From assembly GCF_910592395.1 (NCBI RefSeq), contig NC_088326.1, positions 12,529,001 to 12,593,000 on the forward strand: a stretch of 64,000 nucleotides of DNA, given 5' to 3'. This DNA comes from Lineus longissimus. Its lineage: Eukaryota > Nemertea > Pilidiophora > Heteronemertea > Lineidae. Numbering within the stretch: the stretch's first letter is position 1; every line of letters starts with the position of its first letter. The notes under the pieces were generated by a model. It worked only from the letters and a program-made list of their open reading frames with translations. It was not told where the DNA came from and did no database searches. The position numbers and the translations under genes were made by a program. Shown piece by piece: positions 3,727 through 52,910 of the stretch.

Positions 3727-6700
3727 CTAGTTGTAAAATTGGGACGCATTGAAATAAGAGTCCATCACACCGCGCCGTCTGACGTCACAGGTCCAACAGT
3801 GGAATCCTCCTCCAAATGAATTGGCATGCCTGGAAAGAAGATAAAGAGGCAAATATTATTTAAAATAGAAATGTCACATCACTGCTGTCCGGAAATACGC
3901 CTTATCCGAAGCAATGTAGTGTGATTTAGTTTGGTAGACAATCTGACCTAAGAGGGTCCGCCTGAGAACGGCATATAGGCCTACTGAACTCCCAGCGATA
4001 TTGCCTCCGCTACCTCCGCCCATATTAGACGCGCTTAGTAGCAATGTCAATACATTGACGGTCAAGATGGGGAACGGGAGTTAGGACCGTAACCCCCAAA
4101 CGTATTTTTGCCCCTTACCTCGCGGTCAAAAGAATTCAGGCTATACATGTATAAGCTCGACACGCGACACACCTTTTGTCTTTAAACAATAAAAAAGCCC
4201 GCTCCCACCTGGGCCTTAATTTCCTTTGTTCTAACCACAGGATTAGGAGACAAATCTTGATAAAATCGACCCCCACGAAAAAGCCTCATGAGGTCTATAT
4301 AAGCTGTAACCCTCCTTACGAGGGTTTTCGACTTACTTGATGTCGAGCGTGATGCACTTTACTCCTAGCTTCTCAAACATTTTCTGTGTCGGTACTTCCT
4401 CTTTCCCGCATATCACCCTCTTCTCGTCCAACATCAAGGTGTTCATGGAGAGCCACTTGGACGTGAACCACAGAGGATGACCTAGAAATACAAATGGAAT
4501 ACAGTGACAAGCCGAGAAATCTGATAAAGGGGGACCGCAGCCCTGCCACCCATGCTGCCGAGAGGTCCGAAGCGGCGATCTTGGAAACAAGGCGTTTTGG
4601 GGCCTGCACCCCGAAACACTTGCAAATCTAAGTGCCAAGAAGCATTTCTCGGGCATCTGGAGGGCTAAATTTAGGAGTATAGATTTCTTTGCTTCCTGGG
4701 GAGAGGCACCATAAAAAGCTTTGTTCTCCTCCGAACAGCGGGAAGGGGCGCACCTCTTGCGCTTCCACCGAGTGAAAGGGCCCGAGTCAGGATGGCCTGC
4801 AGTGAATTTAACAATACCTTCTGGCATGACCGGCGCGGGTGCCTCGACAATCTTCCATCCCATCTGCTCAAACTTCTCCTGCTGCAGACACGGCCGGATC
4901 GGATTGGTGATGACAAGACCAGGGGATAACATACAGAACGAGGCATCGATATGAAGCGGGTTCGAATCCGCGAATGTCAGACGATGGACGCGGATGCCCT
5001 TTGGCGCGAGATGGCGTTCTAGCCAGTCGATGCCCATGTCATTAGTGACCTAGAAAACAAACAAAGAAACAATAATTCATGGACGCATCTCCATTCATTG
5101 CGATTCTACATAATCATGATATTGTAGGTTTACCAGCATGACCGTCACCGTCCTGACCACCAAGTCTTTCTGCATCTTACCCGACATTAAAGGGGGTATA
5201 GGGGCTGTCGGGGTGATATACAGCATCAATATCAGCTCCGGTCACCAGATCTGAGATCCTGAATTCGATTCCCAGCCTGGGCGGCCAGGTATACACTCAA
5301 GTGATCAGAGAGAGCAACTCTCTTCAACAGCGTCAAGCGATTATACGAACATGAAGTTCAGGATGACCGGCGGGTATTTGGCAGTCAGTCTTTAGCCATG
5401 CGCATTTGCTGAAAGTTATGCAATGTCCAAACATTTAGGGTCACGATGCTTTGACCCGACGGTGCGTAATAGTTATTTGACCCCTAAGATCCTGCTTATA
5501 TAGTCCCCCTTTATATTTCGTCTTGAATAAACCGACCTGACTTTTTTGTGCAAAGATGTCACGTCCCGCTCTCACAAAATCTGCCGCGTCAAAACATGGC
5601 TCGAACTCGGTGGTGAGAAATGTGCCTTTGGCCGCGAGAGCACTGCGCTCTTTCTCGGAGAGTTTGGCATAGTCCTGGAAGGGAAAGGAAGAGTATCAAA
5701 AAACAAACAAACAACAACAACAAAAGAAGCAGTGCATAAACTGACGTGAAGAAACTATCCCGATTCATGATACACCGATAAGTTCTAAAAGAGCGCTAAG
5801 AGGACATTGCTCTCTCTTCATGTTTTGTAGCTGGTTCCCGCCGTGCGCGGTGGAGCCGGTAGGTACCACCATGTTTACCTTGGCAACGGTATGAACACAT
5901 GTGACGTCATTAGACCAGTTGAGAGATTCCCATACAATACGTGAGGGACTGTTCCTCCCCTAAAAGTGTGTGTGTGGCGTAAAATGGTGTAATAAGATGG
6001 TGGCAGGCATGCATTAAGATGAGATTCTCGGTCACTAGGTAACTGTTTCTCCTAAAGTGATTCTTGGATTACCTAAAGGAAGAGATCACCAATGACTTGA
6101 ATTTACCTGGTCATACAATTCGTCCGACATGCTGGCTTTCGGGGCAGTGGTCCACTGGGCACCTCCTCTGAAATATTCCTTCATCAGGGTACGGTAGGCT
6201 TGGTATTCGAAGAACCGGGACCGCCATGACATTGGCGCCTCAATTATCTCATCTCCGACGACCATCAGAAGGTCACGTGGCATCGCTGCATATAAACCTG
6301 AGGAGATAGAAATACTCGATGTCACACTGTGTCACGCTATGTCTCGTTATCTGGTCACGTGACTATGTCACACTTTTTCCTCTTCCTTCTGATCGCTGAG
6401 AGGAACTCGAGTCCTTAAAACGACAAATAATGTTTTTTTCTCGTCATTTATCGTACAGTTGTAACTCAGTGATTTGATCAAGTACATTTGTTACTGATTT
6501 TATCGTTTGAATGGCCTTCGAAAGAGTTCTTAAAATCGAGGTAAAAATAAATAAGATTTGCACGGAAGTTCGAGTCGATTTGAGTCGAATTTTTAAACGA
6601 TAAACACGCGAGTAGATCGCCTTACCTGTTGACTTGAAATCTGGTGTTTCATACGTCTTACTGTAGTCGACAACATCAGGTCGTCTCACCTTCACCCCTT

Positions 6701-18440: not shown

Positions 18441-18622
18441 TACAGTGGAACCTCCCTTAGCGAACACCTCTCTATTAAGGGCAACCTCTTAATTAAGGAC
18501 ACTAGATTTGGTCCCAAATTGGTTGTTTCCATTCAATTTGACCTCTCTAATCAGGACAACTCTCTATTAAGGACAGCACTTGTCAGTCCCAATGGTGTCC
18601 TTAATAGAGAGGTTCTACCGTA
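18441..18622 (+). mobile_element. MITE, family B (pogo/Tigger-like ends), copy 2
   Basis: It begins TACAGTGGAACCTCCCTTAG and ends GAGAGGTTCTACCGTA. It repeatedly contains CTCTATTAAGGACA and its complement. TA ends and a CAGT-GAACCTC terminus are typical of non-autonomous pogo/Tigger relatives of the Tc1/mariner group. Three other copies are in this window. Confidence 0.8.
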
Positions 18623-19305
18623 GTATCAGAATTAAAGGCGGAAATGTCCATCATATCAAATTAGAGTTTATTTGCGTAGAATACAATATTTTGGTGGTAT
18701 CAAAATACATGTATAGATTATCATCAACAAACACAACAGGACAGGAGGCTAGCCCTAACAAGGGTGTACTGGGTGTCAAAATCTTTTTCCATACTTTTGA
18801 TTTTGAATAACTCGCAAAGTGCTGATCTGATTTTCACCAAATCTCTCCCACAAGTAGCTAAGATTCCAGTTCGTTTGATCTCGTTACCTGCATTAGTTAT
18901 TGCGCAATAGGCATTTCGATTTTTCGACGTTCCTACACCTTGGCAAGTTCAATTTGGTGTCATCTGTCACCAATCTAACTCTAAGAAGTGGCCTCACCAT
19001 GCAGTCTCTTGAAGTATCCTCCACATGTCTATCGGAAGGCCAGCTTCCGACTTCATTATAAGATTCATCTTAGCATCTTGGCATTAGAGACTAGCACCGT
19101 TCTTAACTATTGGTGGTACATGAAAATAGAAACACAGGGATACGAGTTTAAAAGAATTAGTATCAGTGCCAACGTCAACATTGGCCGATTTGGACAAAAG
19201 TTCAGGCCAATTCTCTTAGAATCGAGTCAAACTAACGAATGACTCCATGTCTGTGAAATCCTACACTTTATCCAATCCGCTGATCCTGGTATAATGGTGG
19301 GGCTC
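18623..19305. other. Short intergenic region downstream of TUBE1
   Basis: I see no coding exon. It should contain the 3' UTR of TUBE1, whose stop codon is at 19,306. No clear AATAAA on the minus strand was noticed close to the stop. Confidence 0.35.
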
Positions 19306-22300
19306 TCATGCCACCGGCAACCTTGCAGCGTGGCCAGGTGGGTTCGTCTCTAAGCCTTCGTACTCGGATATGATACCGGTGAGTGACTCAAGGCTGTCCG
19401 TGAACTCCTGGGCCTCCATCCCGTCCACACTGGTATAATGGTGCATATGGGCCTGCAACGAAAATGATTTATGAATGACAGGACAAACATTAAAGGGGAA
19501 CGCCCTACTTTTTCATACATTAACTGTTGGTCCAACTTAATATACAGTAGAACCTCTCTTAGTGGACACCTCTCTATTAAGGACACCAGTTTTGGTCCCA
19601 AACTGGTTGTTTCCATTCAATTTGACCTCTCTAATCAGGACACCTCTCTATTAAGGACAGCACTTGTCAGTCCCAAGGGTGTCCTTAATAGAGAGGTTCT
19701 ACTGTAGTTCCTATTTTTAACAGCAGTGGCGTGTGTCTTTTATTGAAACAACCACCAGGTCAAAAAACGGCATGAGCCTTCAAGCCATTTGCGCTAGCCA
19801 ACATCACTTTCAATGACAAGGAGAACCTGCTTTGTACCTTTCTCTTATAGAGCCGGACAAACCGATCCTTCAGCTCGGAGAATGTATGTCGTACACACGT
19901 GTTATTTGCAAGCGTCAGTAGTGAGTATTGTTGGCCCACAGGGGGCGTTGAACACAGGCCTGTCTTCCAACCCTCTTGGTTCCAGTGGATGAATTTCAGC
20001 GAGGGCTTTAACCTGAATTCATAGAGTGAAGAGACTAGCAAATATTGAATTGAGAGCTGAACGTAAACTAGGACATTATTAGCTTGATAAACGATTAGGG
20101 CGATTGTAATTTAAGTAGGAGGAAACCTACACCGTTGAAGACGGTCGCCCTGTCTATCTTTTGAGTATACCGGTGTGCAAGGGATAGTAGTCCTAGGGCT
20201 GATAGTCCGTGTAACAATAGCCCGCATTGCTAAATGTTTTGGTTAGGGTTAGCGGTACAATAGATTGTGCTGCTTAATTGGTCAAATACTATGCTACCGG
20301 ACTATGACTTCAGGGGGACTATATCCGCTGTCACACCGGGACTGACATATTGATATGAAGTGGAGGTAATGAAGGAGAGACACTCGTGACACAACTGAAT
20401 TGTCCATTTGACTTGTTTAGTTGTTGTCAAATTATTGCCGATATCAAGGAAAATTGGTCTGTACCTCTCAATGTTTCGCCTGATGTCAGACACTTCCGCG
20501 TTCCCTCGGACCATGAGGGCGCATGCGAGGTACGTGCTGTGTTTCGGATCAGCTCGGATCAACTGGTGATCTCGCGAGAAAGCGTCCGAGAACATCTGAT
20601 CGAGTCGCCGCGGAGGAAGGTGGATATCGGCGCAGGAGTAGAGCGGCGCTTGGCTGGAGACGAGGTAGTGTAGCTTGGGGAAGGGGACGAGGTTCATTGT
20701 GATTTCGTTTAAATCTACGTTGAGCGATCCTTCGAATCTTGCTGAGCTGAAAAACGAGAGACGTAATGTTAATGGTCTGTTTTCCTGGACCACCAGTGAT
20801 TTCAAACGGCGTACCCCGTTAAAGAAAAGGAAGCGCGTGGCAGAATGTCCTCTCACCTTGTCATGTTCAGTAAGAGATTAGCGACGATATTATTCATCGT
20901 ATCGAATGGTTTTTCATCTTTTTTCTTCGTCAGACCACCGTCACCAGTTGCGAGGGTCTTCACATCTCCGAACGTCTTTTTCCCGATTTTCGTGGATGGA
21001 ACCGCCTGATTGATTTTATTCATAATTTCGACAAGAGCCTGAAATTTGAAATCATAAATATCATATCTCAAACCACAAAATTTCTGCGCTTCTTTATTTT
21101 TGAAAATTTCTGTAAAAAATAATTAAAAATAATTAAAAAGTTTTATTTTGGGCAATGGTACATTACAAATTTCTATCAGTATTTCTGATCAAAAATATTT
21201 TTTGCAATTTTTTTCTCATGAATCTAGTCTATCACTAACAATACACCCAGAAAAATCTGGCATTTTCAAAAGCATATACGTGACCCGCTCTACCAAAACT
21301 AGGCGCTTGTCGCATCTGAACTTGACAGGTTGATACGGACTTGTTGTTCATTTCCCTATTGTAGACCTTTTGTGAAATGTGACCAAATCAGTTTGTAATA
21401 GATTTCACAAAAGGTCTACAATAGGGAAATGAACAACAAGTCCGTATCAACCTGTCAAGTTCAGATGCGACAAGGGCCTAGTTTTGGTAGAGCGGGTCAT
21501 ATATAAGTCTTTAAGCACTATACAACATCCCCATCCCGACATTCTAACCAAAATTGTCTAAAATCCTCCCTGTTTCGACCCCTACCTGATTCTCTATAGG
21601 AAGAACACAGTCAGCATTTTCCGTCAACTGCCGCATCGCCAGGACGCTATTATACGGCGAGGTGATGACATCATCCTCCGCCGAGGGATAAACCGCGGTG
21701 ACGAATCTGTAGACATCCGGGTACTGTTCTTCTAGTATCCGGAGAACGTGAGTGCCAAGACCTGAACCAGTCCCTGGAAAATAAATAACCGGTACGCAAG
21801 TGAAGTTACAATGAGGAACATATATTTCAAACAGCTAAATTTTGGTGTAATTTTTTCTTAAGGATTTGGAAGTTACCTAGATACACATGTAGTAAATACA
21901 ACAAAAAAATTGTGAAAAAAAAATTAATTGGAAAATTAAGGACATTTCATAAACAATTGCTAATTGCAAGTACAATGGAACCTCCCTTAGTGGACACCTC
22001 TCTATCAAGGACAACCTCTCTATTAAGGACACTAGTTTTGGTCCCAAATTGGTAGTTTCTATTCAATTTGACCTCTCTAATCAGGACACCTCTCTATTAA
22101 GGACAGCACTTGCCAGTCCCGAAGGTGTCCTTAATAGAGAGGTTCTACTGTATATGGAAGAGCTCAGTAGCTCAGCAGGACGAACGCTTTCCTTATACAG
22201 ATAAGATCTTTTTACCTCCTCCCATGGAATGCATTATGAAGAAACATTGCAAACAATCACAGAATTCCGCAGCTCGACGAATTGTGTCGGATATTTCCTC

Positions 22301-42600: not shown

Positions 42601-44249
42601 AGGTGAAAGTTTTATCAATTTTGGTTGCTCGGTGTACTCCAGCGCAGAGAGATTAATCAGCTTAAGTCAAACGTCATCATTTATTATTCATGATGAAGGA
42701 TTTGATATGAAACGTAATATAAATCTTAGATAGCTTTGAGGCGGTCATATATTTTGATATCGTATTGATGAGCGTTTTATTTACCGCCAGATGATGGAGA
42801 TTGCATGGGTAAATAGTTGAGTTGTGCGTCTTGTTGTCTAATCATCAAACGTACAGTGAAAATGAGTGCATGCTACCCATCAGTTCCCTATAATACCTTT
42901 GAAGACAACATTTTATTCTGAAAAACCCTATTTATTCTTTATAATTAAAGCCCAAATATTTCAGCATATCTGATGAATCCAAAAGAATCTGAGATCAAAA
43001 AAGGAACTTTCTTTCATTTGCGAAAGCAGATTGCTCAGTTATGCTAATTTGCCGACATATCCATGGTTCGTAGTCTCTCTCTCAATGCAAAGATTTATGA
43101 AACAATTCCGAAAAATTACCTCAGAATCTCGTAAAAAGTAGGAAAAGTTCGGCTGAGTTTCGGAAAGAGCAGTAACCGCGGAATCTTGAGAAAATGTAAG
43201 GAAATTATTGCGGCGGAATATCACTCTTAGAATGTCGTTTCCATGCAGTATTCAGCACCGACTGCGTGGAGGTCATTAATATTTTCATCAGGAATTATTC
43301 ATACTACCAGAAGAACTGAACATACGATCATAGAAAGCATCTCATAGATAAGAGGATGAAGCCAGTTTGAGTATTTAGAGAGCAGTGATGGAATACTCTA
43401 AACTCACCCATATAAGACCGTCTGCATATTCAAGTAACGGAAATTCACGTGATCTTTGCTTTTCAATATCATCTAGCAGCAAATGATATGACTAAAATCT
43501 TCAGCCTGAATAGTGCACGGTCCGCCTCGGGATGTCCTCTTCGTGAATGGACTCACTTAGTACTTATGTCTTCGAGGGTACCATAAACTGTCGGCAAATT
43601 GCTTTTTTTCCTGACGACCAGTTGAAATTTTTCCTCGGGGAGAAATTGCTGGTGGTTGTTAATATCAAACAGTGACAGAGGATAGAGTTATCCTAGCAGT
43701 TAATGTGATGAGATGGCCGTATGAGGGATTAAATGCTAGCTCGCTTTCTCGGGTTAATATCCTCTTGACCTCCCGCCGGGAGCATATTTCGCCGGGTCAC
43801 ATCCTAAATGATGTTATCTTGTTTTGCTCTGTTTGATAGGTATAGGGGGAGTTAATGCTCAGGGCATCCAATGGAAACATACCCTGAACATACGCCTCTA
43901 CTTATTTGGCGATATCCAACATGTCCGACTCACTTACACTCACTGGCCTACGAATGTATCAACGCCAAGTCGCCATGCAATTATCACTTTGCAATTCCAA
44001 TTTAACAAATTAACGTCAATACGTCAATTAACGTCGGATTTTCTAATGAAGATAGTACCTCGCGTATAGTAGTATTTCTCAGCTAGCGTAATTGAGGTTT
44101 CGTAAATCTCACGAATAACGATTTGATTAACAAGGTTGTCCAAAAATTACCCAGTGTCATTCTACCGGCGGTCAGTCGTATCCAGTGTTGCGTTTTCATA
44201 CGCATATTTCCGCTTTGGCTTATCCACCACAATGATTGTTATTCCATTG
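39656..44249. other. AT-rich gene-poor stretch
   Basis: 41,050-42,300 is strikingly AT-rich with many T-runs. A 140-codon ATG frame at 40,557-40,979 is the longest and has no recognised domain; its product is rich in Ser, Asn and His and may be chance. No exon with family similarity was found. Confidence 0.4.
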
Positions 44250-44934
44250 GGGCTGATGTTATCAAGACTTTCCCTGATAAGCCTTTGATAAGACTGTACC
44301 ACAATGGGAATTTAGGCCAAGGTGCGAGCGAGCGGGGGTTGATGTTATCAAGACTTTCCCTGATAACCCTTTGATAAGACTGTACCACAATGGGAATTTA
44401 GGCCAAGGTACGAGCGAGCGGGCGTTGATGTTATCAAGACTTCCCTGATAACCCTTTGATAAGACTGTACCACAATGGGAATTTAGGCCAAGGTGCGAGC
44501 GAGCGGGCGTTGATGTTATCAAGACTTCCCTGATAACCCTTTGATAAGACTGTACCACAATGGGAATTTAGGCCAAGGTGCGAGCGAGCGGGCGTTGATG
44601 TTATCAAGACTTCCCTGATAACCCTTTGATAAGACTGTACCAAAATGGGAATTTAGGCCAAGGTGCGAGCGAGCGGGGGTTGATGTTATCAAGACTTTCC
44701 CTGATAACCCTTTGATAAGACTGTACCACAATGGGAATTTAGGCCTAGGTGCGAGCGAGCGGGGGTTGATGTTATCAAGACTTTCCCTGATAACCCTTTG
44801 ATAAGACTGTACCACAATGGGAATTTAGGCCAAGGTGCGAGCGAGCGGGGGCTGATGTTATCAAGACTTTCCCTGATAACCCTTTGATAAGACTGTACCA
44901 CAATGGGAATTTAGGCCAAGGTGCGAGCGAGCGG
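44250..44934 (+). repeat. Satellite-like array, eight units of 84-85 bp, derived from the family C end
   Basis: Each unit reads GATGTTATCAAGAC, CCCTGATAACCCTTTGATAA, GACTGTACCACAATGGGAAT, TTAGGCCAAGGTGCGAGCGA, GCGGG. This is the family C arm as found at 34.7, 37.4 and 39.5 kb. Units are almost identical; the variants are a T/TT indel and CAAGG against CTAGG. 84-85 bp drifts through all frames, and the minus strand stays open across several units, giving overlapping ORFs with no coding meaning. Confidence 0.9.
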
Positions 44935-47900
44935 GAAAACGCAGAACGCACTGCGAATTGGAAGGTGGATGCCTTGTGAGCAACAGATCATGTTTTCACG
45001 TTTCAGGAGAAATAATCATTTGTAATTCCTAATGCGTGGATTTTGTGGAACCTTGCTGTTATCATCAGTCTTGTGGAGCTAGCATTTATGGTACCTCGTT
45101 GGACCTCAAGTAGCATTTAGCATCCCGGATGGCTGACCGATCATGCTATCTGCTAAGTGATAACTTCATCCTCTGTCCTCCTTTGATATCAAGAACACTC
45201 ATCACTTCCTCCCCAAGGACCCATTCCGTCGTGTCCTCAGGAAAAAAGGCAATTTGCCTGCAGTTTATGGTAGGTGAGATCGCCCTCCGTAACAGGGGAT
45301 GGGGGAAAGACATCGATATCGTTTGTTTGCAATAATGTGGCATAAAAGCTTGTAATGGCACCAGGAAAGAATGTATTCGGGCTGTCGGATTGACGCCGTC
45401 GAAACATCAGCGCCGTGTCGCCTCCGAGGTTCCGGATTTGGTTCACGGTGTACTCATGTGACAGAGAGGGCGACTCTTAACAACATCGTAGGATTCCTCC
45501 TACCTCACACCACAGATCGCCCAACTATTGTCCACAAGCCCCACGAAGGTTGACCAGATGGTTGTTATAAGAAATAGACATAGGTCATTGACCATATACG
45601 CCAGCTAAATGAAAACTTGAATGTTTGGCGTTTTCATATCTGCCAATAGCGTGCCAAATAGAATATTTTGTTTGTAATTCTCACCTCAAAATATAGCCTA
45701 TTTTACTTTTTTCTCTCGCGATGTATTGCCTAAGAAACGCTTTAACACGCAATAAAGTGTTATAAGTAGCCGGGAAGCGACTCCCTAAGGTCTAAAGTAC
45801 ATCACTATATAAAAAAGGGTGATAGCGCCAGTAAGTTTAAAAAGTTAAACGTTTGGTTTATAGTCTGATATGAACTGCGGCAGTCATCCGATTTCACACT
45901 TTAACCCAGTCTATCATGAAGCTTTTCAATACAACTCAGATGAGCGGTTCATTCAGGGCTTCAACCTGAGCACTTCAAACCAGTCCCCATCGATACCCCT
46001 GGGTGGAAACTAACAAATTATACTGGTGGCATGTAGGAGAACACCAGTTTCGTTCTTTCAGCAGTTCCGATTCTACGTCCATTGTAAAGGTGAAGCGTAC
46101 AAGTCAGTGTCAGGGGCCCAATACAATTTAAATTCATTTGAATTTTATTCACATCGCAACCAATAAAATCTCATACAAACGCAAACTAATCGTGTACTTT
46201 CTATGACACAATGGTATTCACGGCCGCCTTGGAAATATGATTCAGAGTTTATAAATCACTTTTGACGAACGGGTGCGCATTTCGAATGAGAACCCGTCCT
46301 GTTTTAACAGCTCGCCCTGGTACACAAGGCAAGGTGATTTAAAAACCTGTGGTCGGCTCAACGCACCGAGATCACAGCTAAACATGTAAGAAATCTAATC
46401 TAAACATTGTTTTTTTCATCCTGAGATCAGCCTTAACACGCTTATGCAGAATGAATAATTCTCATGGGCAGTTTCATTCTGAAATATGGGATGAGTAGAA
46501 GGAAGAAAAATAATATCGCGTTATTTCGCTGGTGGTACATCACCGGCAAAGAAGATTAAAACATAATATGCGGACTCGCCAGTTGAGTGTGTTATAAAAA
46601 GAATCAGGGCATTGGGTTCATCGGGAAGGAGGGGAAAGAGTTGAGATACCATCTCAATCTTATATGCTGTGGTGAGCCAGTACAACTCAACCTAATGGAT
46701 CATGCACAACATGTAGCACTGCTGTGGTGAGGTTTCCGTGAAGATTTGACCATAAAATCATTCTCGCTAGAACTTGAAACCATAAAGGAATTAGAAATCT
46801 TTCGGAACGAAGTGAATGCCAACTTCAACGGTGGGGGTCCTATCTTTGTTTTCTGGAGAGAACAGCCTCCAAGGTTTGAAACGGGCATTCACTTCGGCTT
46901 GAAGGACTTCTAATTGCTTTAGGATATCAAGTTCTAGCCAAAATGGCGGTACCTATGGTCAACCCATAACACATCAGTGCTGAACGTCTCATGTTCCTTA
47001 GCGAAAGGTCCTCGAGCACGTTGACATGCCCGTGGTTTCTCATGGCAGAAATAAAGACGAAGAGACTCTTAGAGTACTCGTGCTGGACGATTCCCTTGGT
47101 TGCCTGGAGACACTAACATTGTTAGACGGACATATCACGCGAAACCCTTTCAATAAATGCACTGCACGATTAAGTTACTCTTCCCCCTAAAACAACGTGT
47201 TGCAGACTTTTTCCTGTGAGACTTCATGTAGTGATAGCCAATTAGAAGCCATCAATCCCTGCTTCACCGGCGCAGCTTTCGAAATTTAGCCAATCACAAG
47301 GGAGTGTTGAGACTTCCGGTCACTTACATTGAAGGAAAGCGATGATTTGGCGAAATCAGTGTTATGATTTGCTGACAGAGCAATAAGGTGGACATCTCAG
47401 ACAACCGAAGCTTATGCATAAAATATAATGCCAGTACGAGTAATCTCAGTGGCAAGGTGATGATGCTAGTCTTCCGTTGGCCGGGTCTTTTGTCATTCAG
47501 CATGTTCAGCGCGCGAGCTGGGCAAAATTATCATGTTGGATTGCCAGCTCATATCTTGGCGAAGGAGAGTCACCTTCATCATTTGGTATGCACCCGGAGT
47601 GCTGGCCTTGGTTGGCGAGTGCTTGAAGGCTCTTGTCTGTCCTGTTCTGTCACCACACCGGGCCGTGATATGGAAATACGAAGCCAAGACAAAATTGATG
47701 ACATCGACATCAAACACTGTACTGGTCGCGATAGCTTTCCGAAACCCGCAAGCATGGCAAGACGTAAAAACGCTAAGATCTATAATCCGCTTGATTAAAG
47801 GCTCCCATGACTACTCCAAAAGGTATTAGTGTCGCGTCCCCCATTATCTTTTTTCCGGTGCAAATGGGTTTTTTACCGGCATTCGATTTCTTTAGGCTCA

Positions 47901-48230: not shown

Positions 48231-48545
48231 CTTCTAAATGTGGCGTGCCTGTGCCTTTTTATAGTGACGCTTTCGTCTTTCATTCGCCAAACGAACACAC
48301 AATGCACCAACCTTTGCTTGACAGGACTCTCGGCCTGTGTTGGTTCATGCAAGAAGAACTGTTCACACGACTGTGCGCGCCTCTGCCGGCGGAAATTACG
48401 GAAATGCAATGCCTTGGACGAACCACGAGAATATTGTGAAAGGTACGCGGGCGGCTGTGCAAGTTATTGTTATAGAAGAAAGTGCGTTAAAAATTACTGC
48501 AAAAAGTGCCGGGGTGCCTACGCCAGATGCTGGTATTGCTATTAA
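48231..48545 (+). CDS. Secreted 16-cysteine basic peptide, paralogue 1 (3' coding exon)
   Basis: No known family is recognised. The exon follows a clear acceptor (CTCTTTTTCCAATTTAAG) and reads in frame to a TAA. It first encodes the hydrophobic rest of a signal peptide (VACLCLFIVTLSSF), then a mature part of about 80 residues starting QC. The mature part has 16 cysteines with spacing C-x3-C-x6-C-x3-C-x3-C-x3-C-x3-C-x6-C-x9-C-x6-C-x3-C-x4-C-x4-C-x2-C-x6-C-x2-C. It is rich in Lys and Arg (CRRKLRKC, CYRRKC). There is no in-frame ATG in the exon, so the start lies in an unseen upstream exon. A role in defence (antimicrobial) or venom/mucus is possible but not shown. This copy alone ends CWYCY instead of CWNC. 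Confidence 0.8.
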   Translation, partial: LLNVACLCLFIVTLSSFIRQTNTQCTNLCLTGLSACVGSCKKNCSHDCARLCRRKLRKCNALDEPREYCERYAGGCASYCYRRKCVKNYCKKCRGAYARCWYCY

Positions 48546-49076
48546 AGTCAACATACTCGTACACCCGTAGATTTGTAGAACTGTCGGAGTGTATCGGACA
48601 TACAACATAAGGACCTAGAAACGAGGATGATTCCTGAGTCATCATGCTAGTCCCCATTAGACACTGATAGTGCTGTGACTATTTCCTAACATTCAACAGT
48701 CAAGGACCAAGATTCGAGGATGAAAATGTTATAACATATATTTTTCGTGTTCGTGTTTTATACACACTGTCGTAATTCGCGTCCCGCTCGGGAGATGTAG
48801 TGCATTGATATGCAGTAGAATATAGTAGGAAGCAGAGGGAACGAGGATACCATATCTAGAAGAAAAGAATGACCAGCGGACCTTTTTCTGACGCGTAGGC
48901 GAGTAAACGTCTTTAGCGCGAGATGTTTGTGGATGGGTTTTCGATTCCGCTGAAGACGGTACGAATTCTAAATTATTTCTGATTTAAGCGCCCTTTCCTT
49001 CACCCAGTTACATTTTTATAGGAACTCTGAAAAACTATCATGTAGAAGGTCAATCCGGCTAAAGCAATAGATATCG

Positions 49077-49345
49077 TTAGGAAAGTCTGTGGTTTCGAGA
49101 ACACGAAATTTGCTGTTCCCAAACCACTGAACTTACACGTTCAGAACGGCTATAGTTTGAGAAACATGAAATTCCATGCCCCCAAACCACTCGGCTGAAC
49201 TTACACCTTCGGAAAATCTGTGGTTTCGGGGACACGAAATTCGTTGCTCCCAAACCACTGAACTTACACGTTTCGGAAGGTCTGTCGTTTCGGGAACGAA
49301 ATGCGTGTTTCAGGAACATGACCTTCGATGCCCCCAAACCACGAG
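49077..49345 (+). repeat. Degenerate tandem repeat, four units of about 65 bp
   Basis: Units share TCTGTGGTTTCGGGAACACG, AAATTCGTTGCTCCCAAACC and ACTGAACTTACACGTT. Units 1 and 3 are closest and units 2 and 4 carry small insertions. It lies between peptide genes 1 and 2. Confidence 0.75.
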
Positions 49346-49874
49346 CAACCTGGCTGATTGCTCCGCTTGATACTAGTTGTACCTGCCCCGCCTCTATCTG
49401 TCTAACCAGTGCGGACGAGTATACGTTGATTGGTACGTAATCCTAATTCTCGATCGAAAACTCACTGATATTGTTGATGTTTAGTAGATCGTCTAGCTTT
49501 TTGTTTCGAAAAACGTAGTCTGTGTTACATTCACTTGTATATCTGATGCACATGTACATGCACTAGTTCTTAGTTTGCACTAATGCGTAGTCTGTGATCC
49601 GTGATACATGTACAAGTAGTTCTTTCTTGTTATAGTAGTCTGTGTTTCGCTCGCAAGTAGTCTTCGTAAACAATAAAGCGTAGTTTGTGTTTTATTTAGA
49701 GTGCAAGTAGTTCTTCCTTGTTGAAACCTTGTTTTTGTTTTTCTTCACGTAGTGGTAGTGTGAGGTGGTCCTACTATCACGGCTTGCACCGACGTTGCGC
49801 TTCTGATTGTGCAGCACGACAAGACGCCTCACATATATCGTAGCCATCGGTGTTAACGCTACTGACACTGACCT

Positions 49875-50035
49875 CGAGAATGTCTTTAAACAAAGCCCGC
49901 CCGAACTTAAGCCTATATTCCCATTGTTCTACTGTCTTAGCAAAAGCGTAACCAGGACAAATCTTGACAATCCCGACCCCTAAGAAACAGTATTCGTGGT
50001 GGTCGTCATGGCCTACCCGACAAGGGCAAATAGTT
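49875..50035 (+). repeat. Family C end fragment
   Basis: AAACAAAGCCCGCCCGAACT, then AAGCCTATATTCCCATTGTT, CTACTGTCTTA and ACAAATCTTGACAA match the forward family C arm. It is a single arm within the spacer of the peptide cluster. Confidence 0.65.
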
Positions 50036-50585
50036 GAAGCACGAACCAATAAAACAATCTCGCCCACGGCGAAGAATCCCCATCTTTGGACGGATTGGAT
50101 GCGGCAGCCTTGATGTCATGATGACACCAGATGATAGTTCTTCAGCACTCTCAACAAACACTCCATCACTTGCAAGATTCTTTATTAAAATCTGTATGCC
50201 GCAAAGACTTGCCAATAAGACACATTAGCGATTTTGTGAGCACTTTCCGTGTTGCACACTACTCTACTGAATCGAATGTTACTAACATATTGCGATGGAA
50301 CCAAGGTGTAGAAGCTACATGTAACATGTTCTCGCAACAGAAAAAGTCTTGTCGTGAAACAAGTGAACAGTTGGTGCGTCCTGTTTACGAGAATCTCAAA
50401 AGTCTTTTCTATAAGATTTTCCCCGTATGATTATTCACATGACCAGTCGTGGTGCACTACCGGTACTAAAATACATAACGTATAATGGTTTTAAAGACAG
50501 TATCTCGGCAGCTATGTGCAGTGCCGCCATTTGTTTTGCCATTTTTATAATAAATTATTTTCCCACTCTTTTTTTCTTTTTTAAG

Positions 50586-50894
50586 CTGGATTTTGTGGCG
50601 TGCCTCAGCATTGTACTCCTTATGACTCTGCCATATTTCATCACCGCCCAATGCACGAACTATTGCCTGACTGGACTATCATCCTGCGTCGGTTCCTGTC
50701 GAAAGAGCTGTTCACATCAGTGCGAGGGATTCTGTAGGCGCAAATTACGGAAGTGTAACCGCTTACGCCGAAACCGCTGGAAAAATTGCGACATTTATTC
50801 CTATGGTTGTGCCTCCTATTGTTACCGACGAAAGTGCAAGTACAACGTTTGTAGAAAATGTAGGACGGCCTATGCCAGGTGTTGGAATTGCTGA
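50586..50894 (+). CDS. Secreted 16-cysteine basic peptide, paralogue 2 (3' coding exon)
   Basis: Same architecture as paralogue 1: acceptor TTCTTTTTTAAG, signal peptide remainder (VACLSIVLLMTLPYFITA), likely cleavage before QC, then 16 cysteines. Spacing is identical except that the middle loop is x10 instead of x9. It is very basic between cysteines 8 and 9 (RLRRNRWKN). It ends CWNC and TGA. The frame happens to stay open upstream to an ATG at 50,427, but that stretch includes the T-rich acceptor tract found in all three copies, so I regard it as intron and the true start as lying further upstream. AATAAA at 51,099-51,104 is about 205 nt after the stop. Function unknown. Confidence 0.8.
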   Translation: MDFVACLSIVLLMTLPYFITAQCTNYCLTGLSSCVGSCRKSCSHQCEGFCRRKLRKCNRLRRNRWKNCDIYSYGCASYCYRRKCKYNVCRKCRTAYARCWNC

Positions 50895-52595
50895 GTCATC
50901 AGCCTCGTCCCCCGATGCCTTTAGTTTTGGAAAATTATTTCGTGTACATACGATTGTAGGACCTAGAAACCAGGTTGATGCGGCAGCGAATCGCCGAAAT
51001 ATTAAGGATTATATTTTTTCAGTTCGGATGTTTTTAGAGCTCCCTGTAGCGAATCTCGTCCCTAGTTGAGTAAGGCTGTGCATTGATCACACGCAGCTAA
51101 TAAAGCGAATAACGGTGGAGGTGAGGATCATATTTACAAATTCTGGCATGTTCGTTTGCGGATTGATCCCAATATTCTCTGTTAAATCATTGCAAAGAGA
51201 GATTAAAAAGATTGGAATGCTCAGAAGAGTATATACAAGTTGGAGTAAGTTTGTTTTTAAACTCGCAGTAGAACTTGGCTGACCCCCTCCGCCATCGATG
51301 TAGCTCTCTAATGTTGTAAGACTATCCACTGTGGCAATGGTATCTAACGGAATGGAGTAAAATCAGCTTTCCATGTCTCTCACACCACATTTAGTTATAA
51401 ATTACTAACTTACTAACGAATAAAATCTTGTACTAAACTGCATGTAAACTTTTAATTTCCCATTCGAACCCCAACCTTCCGACGCCTGACTATAATGACT
51501 GAAATACACCTTAACTTCGTCTGCATGGACTCTGAATTCTGACATTGTTCTTTATGATGCACGAAGGCTTAAAGCGAAATGTTTAATCTCCAAGGCTTAT
51601 TCTCTGGGGTCTGCATGCTTTTCCTTTTCCTGCGAACGTTTATTGCATGCTCCAAATTCGCAGTTGCGTGTTTATTATCGTTCACACCTTACTCCTGGCT
51701 GTTTCCTATTCATTGTGCTCCTCCTGTGCCTTCTGCGCTGATAATGGTATGATCCTGTGCATCCTGTCATACATGTGACACTAGTGCATCTACGCCTCTG
51801 TGCTTACGTGCTTCTGCATGTGGCTCCTGTCATACATGTGCCTCCAATGCATCTGCACCTCTGTGCTTATGTGCTTCTGCATGTGGCTCCTGTCGTGCAT
51901 GTGCCTCTAGTGCATCTGCACCTCTGTGCTTATGTGCTTCTGCATGTGGCTCCTGTCGTGCATGTGCCTCTAGTGCATCTGCGCCTCTGTGCTTATGTGC
52001 TTCTGCATGTGGCTTCTGTCGTGCATGTGCCTCCAGTGCATCTGCACCTCTGTGCTTATGTGCTTCTGCATGTGGCTGCTGTCGTGCATGTGCCTCCAAT
52101 AGACCTGTGCCTCCGGTGCTCCTGTGCCTAATGTCCTTCTAAGCCTTATGCCATGCCTGTGCCCTCCGTTTCTGTCGTTGCTCCACCAATTAACCGGGCC
52201 ACACATCACACTTCTCCTGGAAGTGGCACGAACAGTGCCATTACCCGAGAGACTTCTAGCAGTTCTACGTACATGGCAGCGTTTAGTGTTGTAGACTGTA
52301 TTTTGGTTGAGAATCATAATCAAGGTAAACTGAGTAAAGACGACCCTCTTTTTCGCTCAAGATTTTCTTGGCGGATGCACTTAAACTTGCATGATTCTTG
52401 TTAAGTCATGACATGTCTTTTGGTGATATGCCTTCACTTCAACCACTGCATCTAATAAAACGATATGTGCGAGAGACAATGCCAGACTGTTGATCTGGGG
52501 TTGTGATTAATTGCCCCGGGGTTGCCTTTGTCGCACTTTTACTTTGCAATGCAAAACCAAAACTAATAACACATTTCCCGCGTCTTCCATTTTAG
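50895..52595. other. Spacer between peptide genes 2 and 3
   Basis: It contains the 3' UTR of gene 2 (TAGGACCTAGAAACCAGG at about 50,958) and its AATAAA. The 63-bp minisatellite (51,755-52,100) follows, and presumably the first exon of gene 3, which I could not place. Confidence 0.45.
51755..52100 (+). repeat. 63-bp minisatellite, about 5.5 units, open on both strands
   Basis: Units read CTCCTGTCGTGCATGTGCCT, CTAGTGCATCTGCACCTCTG, TGCTTATGTGCTTCTGCATG, TGG. The unit is 63 bp, a multiple of three, so whole-array frames persist. The plus frame gives a 21-residue hydrophobic repeat (CAYVLLHVAPVVHVPLVHLH) and the minus frame a His/Ala-rich repeat (HAEAHKHRGADALEAHARQ). Only the repeat is certain; I do not call either frame a gene. 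Confidence 0.85.
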
Positions 52596-52910
52596 GTGGT
52601 TTGTCTGGCCTGCCTTAGCCTTGCCCTCATCGTGACCCTCTCGCCTTTAATCCAGCAGACCACCGCCCAATGTACCAACAGCTGCCTCAGCGGGCTGTCA
52701 GCCTGCGTGGGGTCATGCAGGAAGAACTGTTCCCACTACTGTGGGCGTCTCTGCAAGAGGAAGTATAGGAAATGCAAGGCAAGGAAAGACCACAAAAGAA
52801 ACTGTGACATCTACTCGCACGGTTGCGCCGTCTATTGTTACAGAGTGAAATGCAAGACGTCGATTTGTAAAAAGTGCAGGACATCTTACGGCCGATGTTG
52901 GAACTGCTGA
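52596..52910 (+). CDS. Secreted 16-cysteine basic peptide, paralogue 3 (3' coding exon)
   Basis: Acceptor CGTCTTCCATTTTAG, then signal peptide remainder (VCLACLSLALIVTLSPL), likely cleavage after QQTTA, and a mature part starting QC. It has 16 cysteines with the same spacing as paralogue 1 (middle loop x9), ending CWNC and TGA. Positions conserved in all three are the N-terminal QCTN, CVGSC, CSH, the basic C-R/K-x-K-C loop, GCA-YCYR and the CRTSYGRCWNC-like end. Other residues vary freely. Most of the variation lies in the middle loop and between cysteines 5 and 8. No domain is recognised and function is unknown. Confidence 0.8.
   Translation: MVCLACLSLALIVTLSPLIQQTTAQCTNSCLSGLSACVGSCRKNCSHYCGRLCKRKYRKCKARKDHKRNCDIYSHGCAVYCYRVKCKTSICKKCRTSYGRCWNC

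Follow-up and report, generated by a model that had tools for sequence, protein, structure and literature searches.

What kind of peptide is encoded by three similar cysteine-rich exons that follow one another in the genome of the nemertean Lineus longissimus? The cluster lies in a 64,000-nt stretch of assembly GCF_910592395.1 (contig NC_088326.1, positions 12,529,001 to 12,593,000, forward strand), referred to below as the window. A sequence-only reading of this DNA had noted three plus-strand exons, each encoding a signal-like remainder and, after a QC start, about 80 residues with 16 cysteines (Cys), a description that held for all three copies. The explanation that we favor, with a probability of roughly 0.4, is that the exons encode a secreted, basic helical hairpin, held together by some eight disulfides, which would act in host defense.

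A family of peptides with 16 cysteines

The mature peptides of the three copies start with QC, are 80–81 residues long and contain 16 Cys. The gaps between successive Cys are 3, 6, 3, 3, 3, 3, 6, 9, 6, 3, 4, 4, 2, 6 and 2 residues (with 10 in place of 9 in copy 2), precisely the spacing given in the sequence-only reading. When both strands of the window were searched for stop-free matches to this spacing, these three copies alone were found. Ahead of the mature part, each exon encodes about 20 mostly hydrophobic residues (best 12-residue hydropathy 2.73–2.99), and we infer from this signal-like segment that the peptides are probably secreted.

The distances between the exon starts are 2,355 bp (copies 1 and 2) and 2,010 bp (copies 2 and 3). 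The intergenic stretches share short matches only, the best of 22 bp (E 0.004). The copies are 61–65% identical over exon 2; residues other than Cys have diverged, but less than had been implied. No fourth copy was found in the window by tblastn with the three copies as queries, the next-best matches having E values of 0.001 (antisense over copy 3, containing stops) and 0.015.

Pairwise comparison of the mature parts with a Nei-Gojobori script gave proportions of synonymous differences (pS) of 0.72–0.94, i.e. near saturation, and ratios of the nonsynonymous proportion to the synonymous one (pN/pS) of 0.25, 0.33 and 0.23. When the conserved Cys codons were removed, the ratios were 0.36, 0.45 and 0.32, with bootstrap upper limits of 0.56, 0.65 and 0.49. 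Since the synonymous sites are nearly saturated and the ratios low, the three copies are, judged by their codons, a real gene family, which is old and under purifying selection. Ratios so far below one also bear out the earlier claim of purifying selection under tandem duplication.

The host genome, which totals 391 Mb in 30 contigs, was searched in six frames with copy 3 as the query. Six loci matched, namely the copies of the cluster and three paralogues (L217, L218 and L219) of 35–37% identity (E 5.7e-6 to 7.2e-5). When L219 was used as the query, the same six loci were recovered, plus one stop-containing fragment (E 0.68) that was taken as a chance match. With these two queries the family comprises at least six loci and, as far as sequence similarity can tell, is not confined to the cluster. 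The single relative found outside the genome is P0001, a protein from a 4.1-kb metagenome contig, which was recovered in two of three database searches; the one with copy 1 as the query yielded no relative. When the sites of an identity quartet were resampled, P0001 paired with copy 3 in 93% of cases; because of this grouping, the copy 3 lineage seems to predate the point at which the two hosts separated.

No significant match to any named family was found by sequence comparison, in agreement with the earlier statement that the family was not recognized. The three exons matched no Pfam family, and a Pfam search with seven members (the three copies, the three paralogues and P0001) gave one match, of P0001 to DUF677 (E 0.22), well under the model cut-off. 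Comparison with PDB sequences likewise yielded no significant match for a single sequence (best, a scorpion toxin, E 2.6), a four-member profile (factor VII, E 2.2) or a seven-member profile (conotoxin Mu8.1, E 0.053). Two results that would have spoken against the sequence-only reading, a named family with the same spacing and a pN/pS ratio near one, were sought, and neither was found.

In the alignment of the seven members, the only invariant columns besides Cys are Asn-4 and Trp-78, and positions 18, 30, 32, 34, 69 and 71 are occupied by lysine or arginine (Lys/Arg) in at least six members. The four close members carry net charges of +12 to +18 and the three distant ones charges of +5 to +14; thus the positive sign noted earlier is constant across the seven members, but its size is not.

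Proposed helical hairpin and disulfide ladder

According to the proposed model, the mature peptide would form one alpha-helical hairpin, with Cys 1–8 on helix 1 (residues ~2–38) and Cys 9–16 on helix 2 (~43–79). The Cys would pair from the outside in, from C1-C16 to C8-C9. The resulting ladder, with about eight disulfides, may stand in for a hydrophobic core and would leave a Lys/Arg-rich exterior and a variable turn. Three lines of evidence point to one long helical hairpin: (i) the mirror arrangement of the Cys, (ii) the helices predicted by AlphaFold2 and (iii) the sites of insertions and deletions (indels). The earlier suggestion that the C-x3-C steps mark helices pinned together by disulfides gains support from these same lines, so far as such models can be relied upon.

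When the Cys are matched up in this nested order, the sums of their positions in copies 1 and 3 and in P0001 are 82, 83, 83, 84, 83, 82, 82 and 82, and each sum is one higher in copy 2. The sums span 2, 3 and 2 units in L217, L218 and L219, respectively; in L219 one Cys is displaced by one place. Because a hairpin needs nearly constant sums, we took this pattern as a sign of one. Shuffling of all gaps gave P 0.0010–0.0016 for the mirror symmetry. The Cys of half 1, in addition, show a strong helical periodicity (period 3.81), which none of 20,000 random patterns equaled.

AlphaFold2 was run twice, on a four-member alignment. For copy 3 it predicted helices at residues 2–38 and 43–78, with a predicted template modeling (pTM) score of 0.52 and predicted local distance difference test (pLDDT) values of 73.4, 72.9, 55.9, 41.6 and 36.3 for the five models. 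For copy 2, the predicted helices span residues 2–38, 48–51 and 54–79 (pTM 0.53; pLDDT 72.6, 70.7, 39.6, 34.4 and 34.0). The internal indels of the seven-member alignment are confined to two sites, both located in the turn or next to it. After residue 33 there is an indel of three residues in L218, between C7 and C8 at the end of predicted helix 1, and after residue 43 there are indels of one residue in copy 2 and four in L217. The only other length change is the additional Tyr beyond the last Cys of copy 1.

A backbone elastic model was used to compare the nested ladder with control Cys patterns (281 of 404 runs completed). The total strain of the ladder was 13.4, and none of 138 random patterns reached so low a value; with other starts the strain was 28.4. 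Within the terms of this model, the ladder is shown to be feasible, but the order of the gaps does not demand it.

Several observations weigh against the proposed hairpin and its role. The mirror symmetry falls to P 0.015–0.023 with the central gap fixed and to 0.047 when only half 2 is shuffled, and half 2 is not clearly helix-periodic (period 3.40, P 0.07). The lower-ranked AlphaFold2 models drop to pLDDT values of 34–56 on an alignment of four rows, and the read-out of these models was secondary structure alone. When the gaps of half 2 are shuffled in the elastic model, the strain is as low as that of the real order in 76 of 139 cases, and the beta-carbon distance limit is likewise satisfied by every one of the 277 controls. 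The net charge of L217 is just +5, and the slow rate of change, as estimated from the codons, weighs against defense.

Alternative explanations and proposed role

The main rival, which we regard as unlikely, is metal or oxyanion binding as in vanabins: a disulfide-ladder scaffold whose Lys/Arg residues would hold metal oxo-ions, perhaps with redox-active disulfides. Vanabins (Vanabin2, PDB 1vfi; PF11437) resemble the peptides in their length of about 90 residues, dense Cys, many Lys/Arg and helices, the last of which are predicted here. However, they contain 18 Cys (16 in VanabinX) in another spacing, compared with 16 here, and Vanabin2 has no mirror symmetry (P 0.30) and a net charge of +6, against +5 to +18 in our family. 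None of the seven members matched Pfam PF11437 (Vanabin-2) at E values up to 10, and Vanabin2 itself scored 3e-10; hhalign gave probabilities of 0.8% and 4.5%. The Cys spacing is no closer to that of Vanabin2 than shuffled spacings are (P 0.26 and 0.35; copy 3, P 0.33), and Vanabin2 is absent among the matches listed for the copy 3 model (23 chains, 19 entries). The restriction of vanabins to vanadium-rich ascidians, as reported in the account of PMC9486056, also counts against this rival. An improbable different fold, of two small Cys-rich modules that arose by internal duplication and are each closed on themselves, would suit the lack of clear helix periodicity in half 2 and the direct repeat of gaps 2–7 and 9–14 (6,3,3,3,3,6 and 6,3,4,4,2,6; shuffle P 0.030). 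Against it, with the loop central, the gap difference is 16 for the direct repeat and 4 for the mirror, and both best AlphaFold2 models have one long helix per half, save for the break in half 2 of copy 2.

A venom or other toxin of the disulfide-stabilized helical-hairpin kind, members of which occur in sea anemones, octocorals, a nemertean and scorpions, appears very improbable, even though small, secreted-type, Cys-rich, tandem peptides would fit it and helical-hairpin toxins with two to four disulfides are described in PMC11896702 and PMC11722136. The same accounts present acrorhagin I, neurotoxin B-IV and U-GRTX-Esi20 and 21 as helical hairpins with three to four disulfides, and the density of Esi21 (8 Cys in 36 residues) is similar to that of one half of the peptides studied here. 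These toxins, as described there, have at most four disulfides, in contrast to the approximately eight proposed here, and the octocoral genes are intronless according to PMC11896702, whereas the genes of the cluster need an upstream exon. The slow change outside the Cys speaks against a fast-evolving venom toxin, and no significant toxin match was obtained. Conotoxin Mu8.1 (PDB 7px1), the best one, is Cys-rich and 89 residues long and was aligned over positions 10–70, but the match is not significant, is unlisted with the four-member profile, and covers a stretch with fewer Cys. Solved helical-hairpin toxins were not among the PDB matches listed (E up to 10); members of this toxin group are described as sharing under 20–21% identity with one another (PMC11896702). 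A structural or signaling secretion (matrix, mucus or peptide ligand) seems quite improbable as well: the low pN/pS at non-Cys sites and the invariant Asn-4 and Trp-78 would suit a fixed partner, but most members are highly basic and the six loci differ in charge.

The best reading is a helical hairpin built like that of vanabins or plant alpha-hairpinins, yet assigned to neither family by the searches. Alpha-hairpinins are basic-type defense peptides of two antiparallel helices, with nested C1-C4 and C2-C3 bonds between C-x3-C motifs (PMC7191063). They differ from the present peptides, as described in that source, in having four Cys and two bonds, whereas the peptides of the cluster contain 16 Cys and are twice as long; none of the family members was found to match an alpha-hairpinin in sequence. 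The helices of the proposed ladder (35 residues) would be longer than those of any alpha-hairpinin or helical-hairpin toxin cited.

Host defense is, by analogy, the likeliest role, with metal binding next, because the peptides would be small, stable, basic, encoded in tandem and akin to cationic hairpin peptides. A stable basic rod outside the cells may bind microbial surfaces, as cationic alpha-hairpinins do. More tentatively, we propose that the peptides constitute an undescribed animal family, with an eight-disulfide nested ladder between two 35-residue helices and with clustered exons that are possibly alternative terminal exons of a common first exon. If the ladder is real, it would be an extreme example from nature of a protein that relies on disulfides in place of a hydrophobic core, reached through a spacing unlike that of vanabins, which would raise the question of whether such ladders arose more than once. 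It would also provide a very stable basic helical scaffold with a single variable turn. The Cys spacing and the seven-member alignment offer a means of seeking relatives in other animal genomes.

Gene structure and other features of the window

The coordinates of the exons, candidate signals and paralogues are presented in Table 1. Acceptor-like AGs set the starts of the three exons, all in phase 0. In copies 1 and 3, the open frame after the acceptor contains no in-frame ATG ahead of the mature part, and the initiator should therefore sit in an upstream exon. For L219, a candidate first exon made up of an ATG and two further codons lies 1.4 kb upstream; its donor scores 6.2, and the eight donor bases are identical to those after the candidate ATG of copy 1. 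The 2.0-kb interval upstream of copy 2 contains no donor above 3.5 bits, although the window as a whole has, on each strand, about 1.2 sites scoring above 4 bits in every 2 kb. Upstream of copy 3 there are weak candidates only (best score 2.3), and no first exon of the three window copies was identified with confidence. Since the search revealed no ordinary first exon ahead of copy 2, it is possible that the three clustered exons are alternative terminal exons sharing one upstream first exon. An AATAAA occurs 1,127 bp after the stop of copy 1, and neither AATAAA nor ATTAAA is present within 1,590 bp after that of copy 3.

Table 1. Location of the exons and candidate signals in the window, and of the paralogues in the genome
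Feature	Position	Strand	Details
Copy 1, exon 2 (signal segment, mature part, stop)	48231..48545	+	mature part 48300-48542, 81 codons
Copy 2, exon 2 (signal segment, mature part, stop)	50586..50894	+	mature part 50649-50891, 81 codons
Copy 3, exon 2 (signal segment, mature part, stop)	52596..52910	+	mature part 52668-52907, 80 codons
Candidate initiator ATG of copy 1	45267..45269	+	directly before donor-like GTAGGTGA, score 4.2; unproven
AATAAA, possible poly(A) signal of copy 2	51099..51104	+	205 bp after copy 2 stop
Paralogue L217	C20, ~3.1 Mb away		open frame, 16 Cys
Paralogue L218	C8		open frame, 16 Cys
Paralogue L219	C20, ~232 kb downstream		open frame, 16 Cys

Two tandem arrays are located near the cluster: eight 86-bp units (97% match) at 44249-44935, about 3.3 kb upstream of copy 1, and 5.3 copies of a 63-bp unit at 51762-52098, between copies 2 and 3. 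One frame of the latter array can be read as a Cys-rich repeat, which could mislead a search by Cys pattern.

Elsewhere in the window, a palindromic repeat element of CCTCTCTATTAAGGACA-like units occurs at ~18450-18630, 19550-19700 and 21975-22150 (14 matches to such units, 0.02 expected). It looks like a small inverted-repeat transposon; a pattern derived from it found nothing in two sequence collections. On the minus strand, the window contains (i) an open frame (4336-5049) matching arginine:glycine amidinotransferase (E 1.6e-39), with frames up to 7522 that, by eye, resemble further exons of this gene, (ii) a tubulin C-terminal domain (20305-20877, E 1.4e-15), in a frame that we take to resemble epsilon tubulin, (iii) a class C G-protein-coupled receptor (58121-60199), with 7tm_3 and NCD3G in one open frame and a ligand-binding piece in another, and (iv) a tRNA gene (62363-62444, 64.7 bits).
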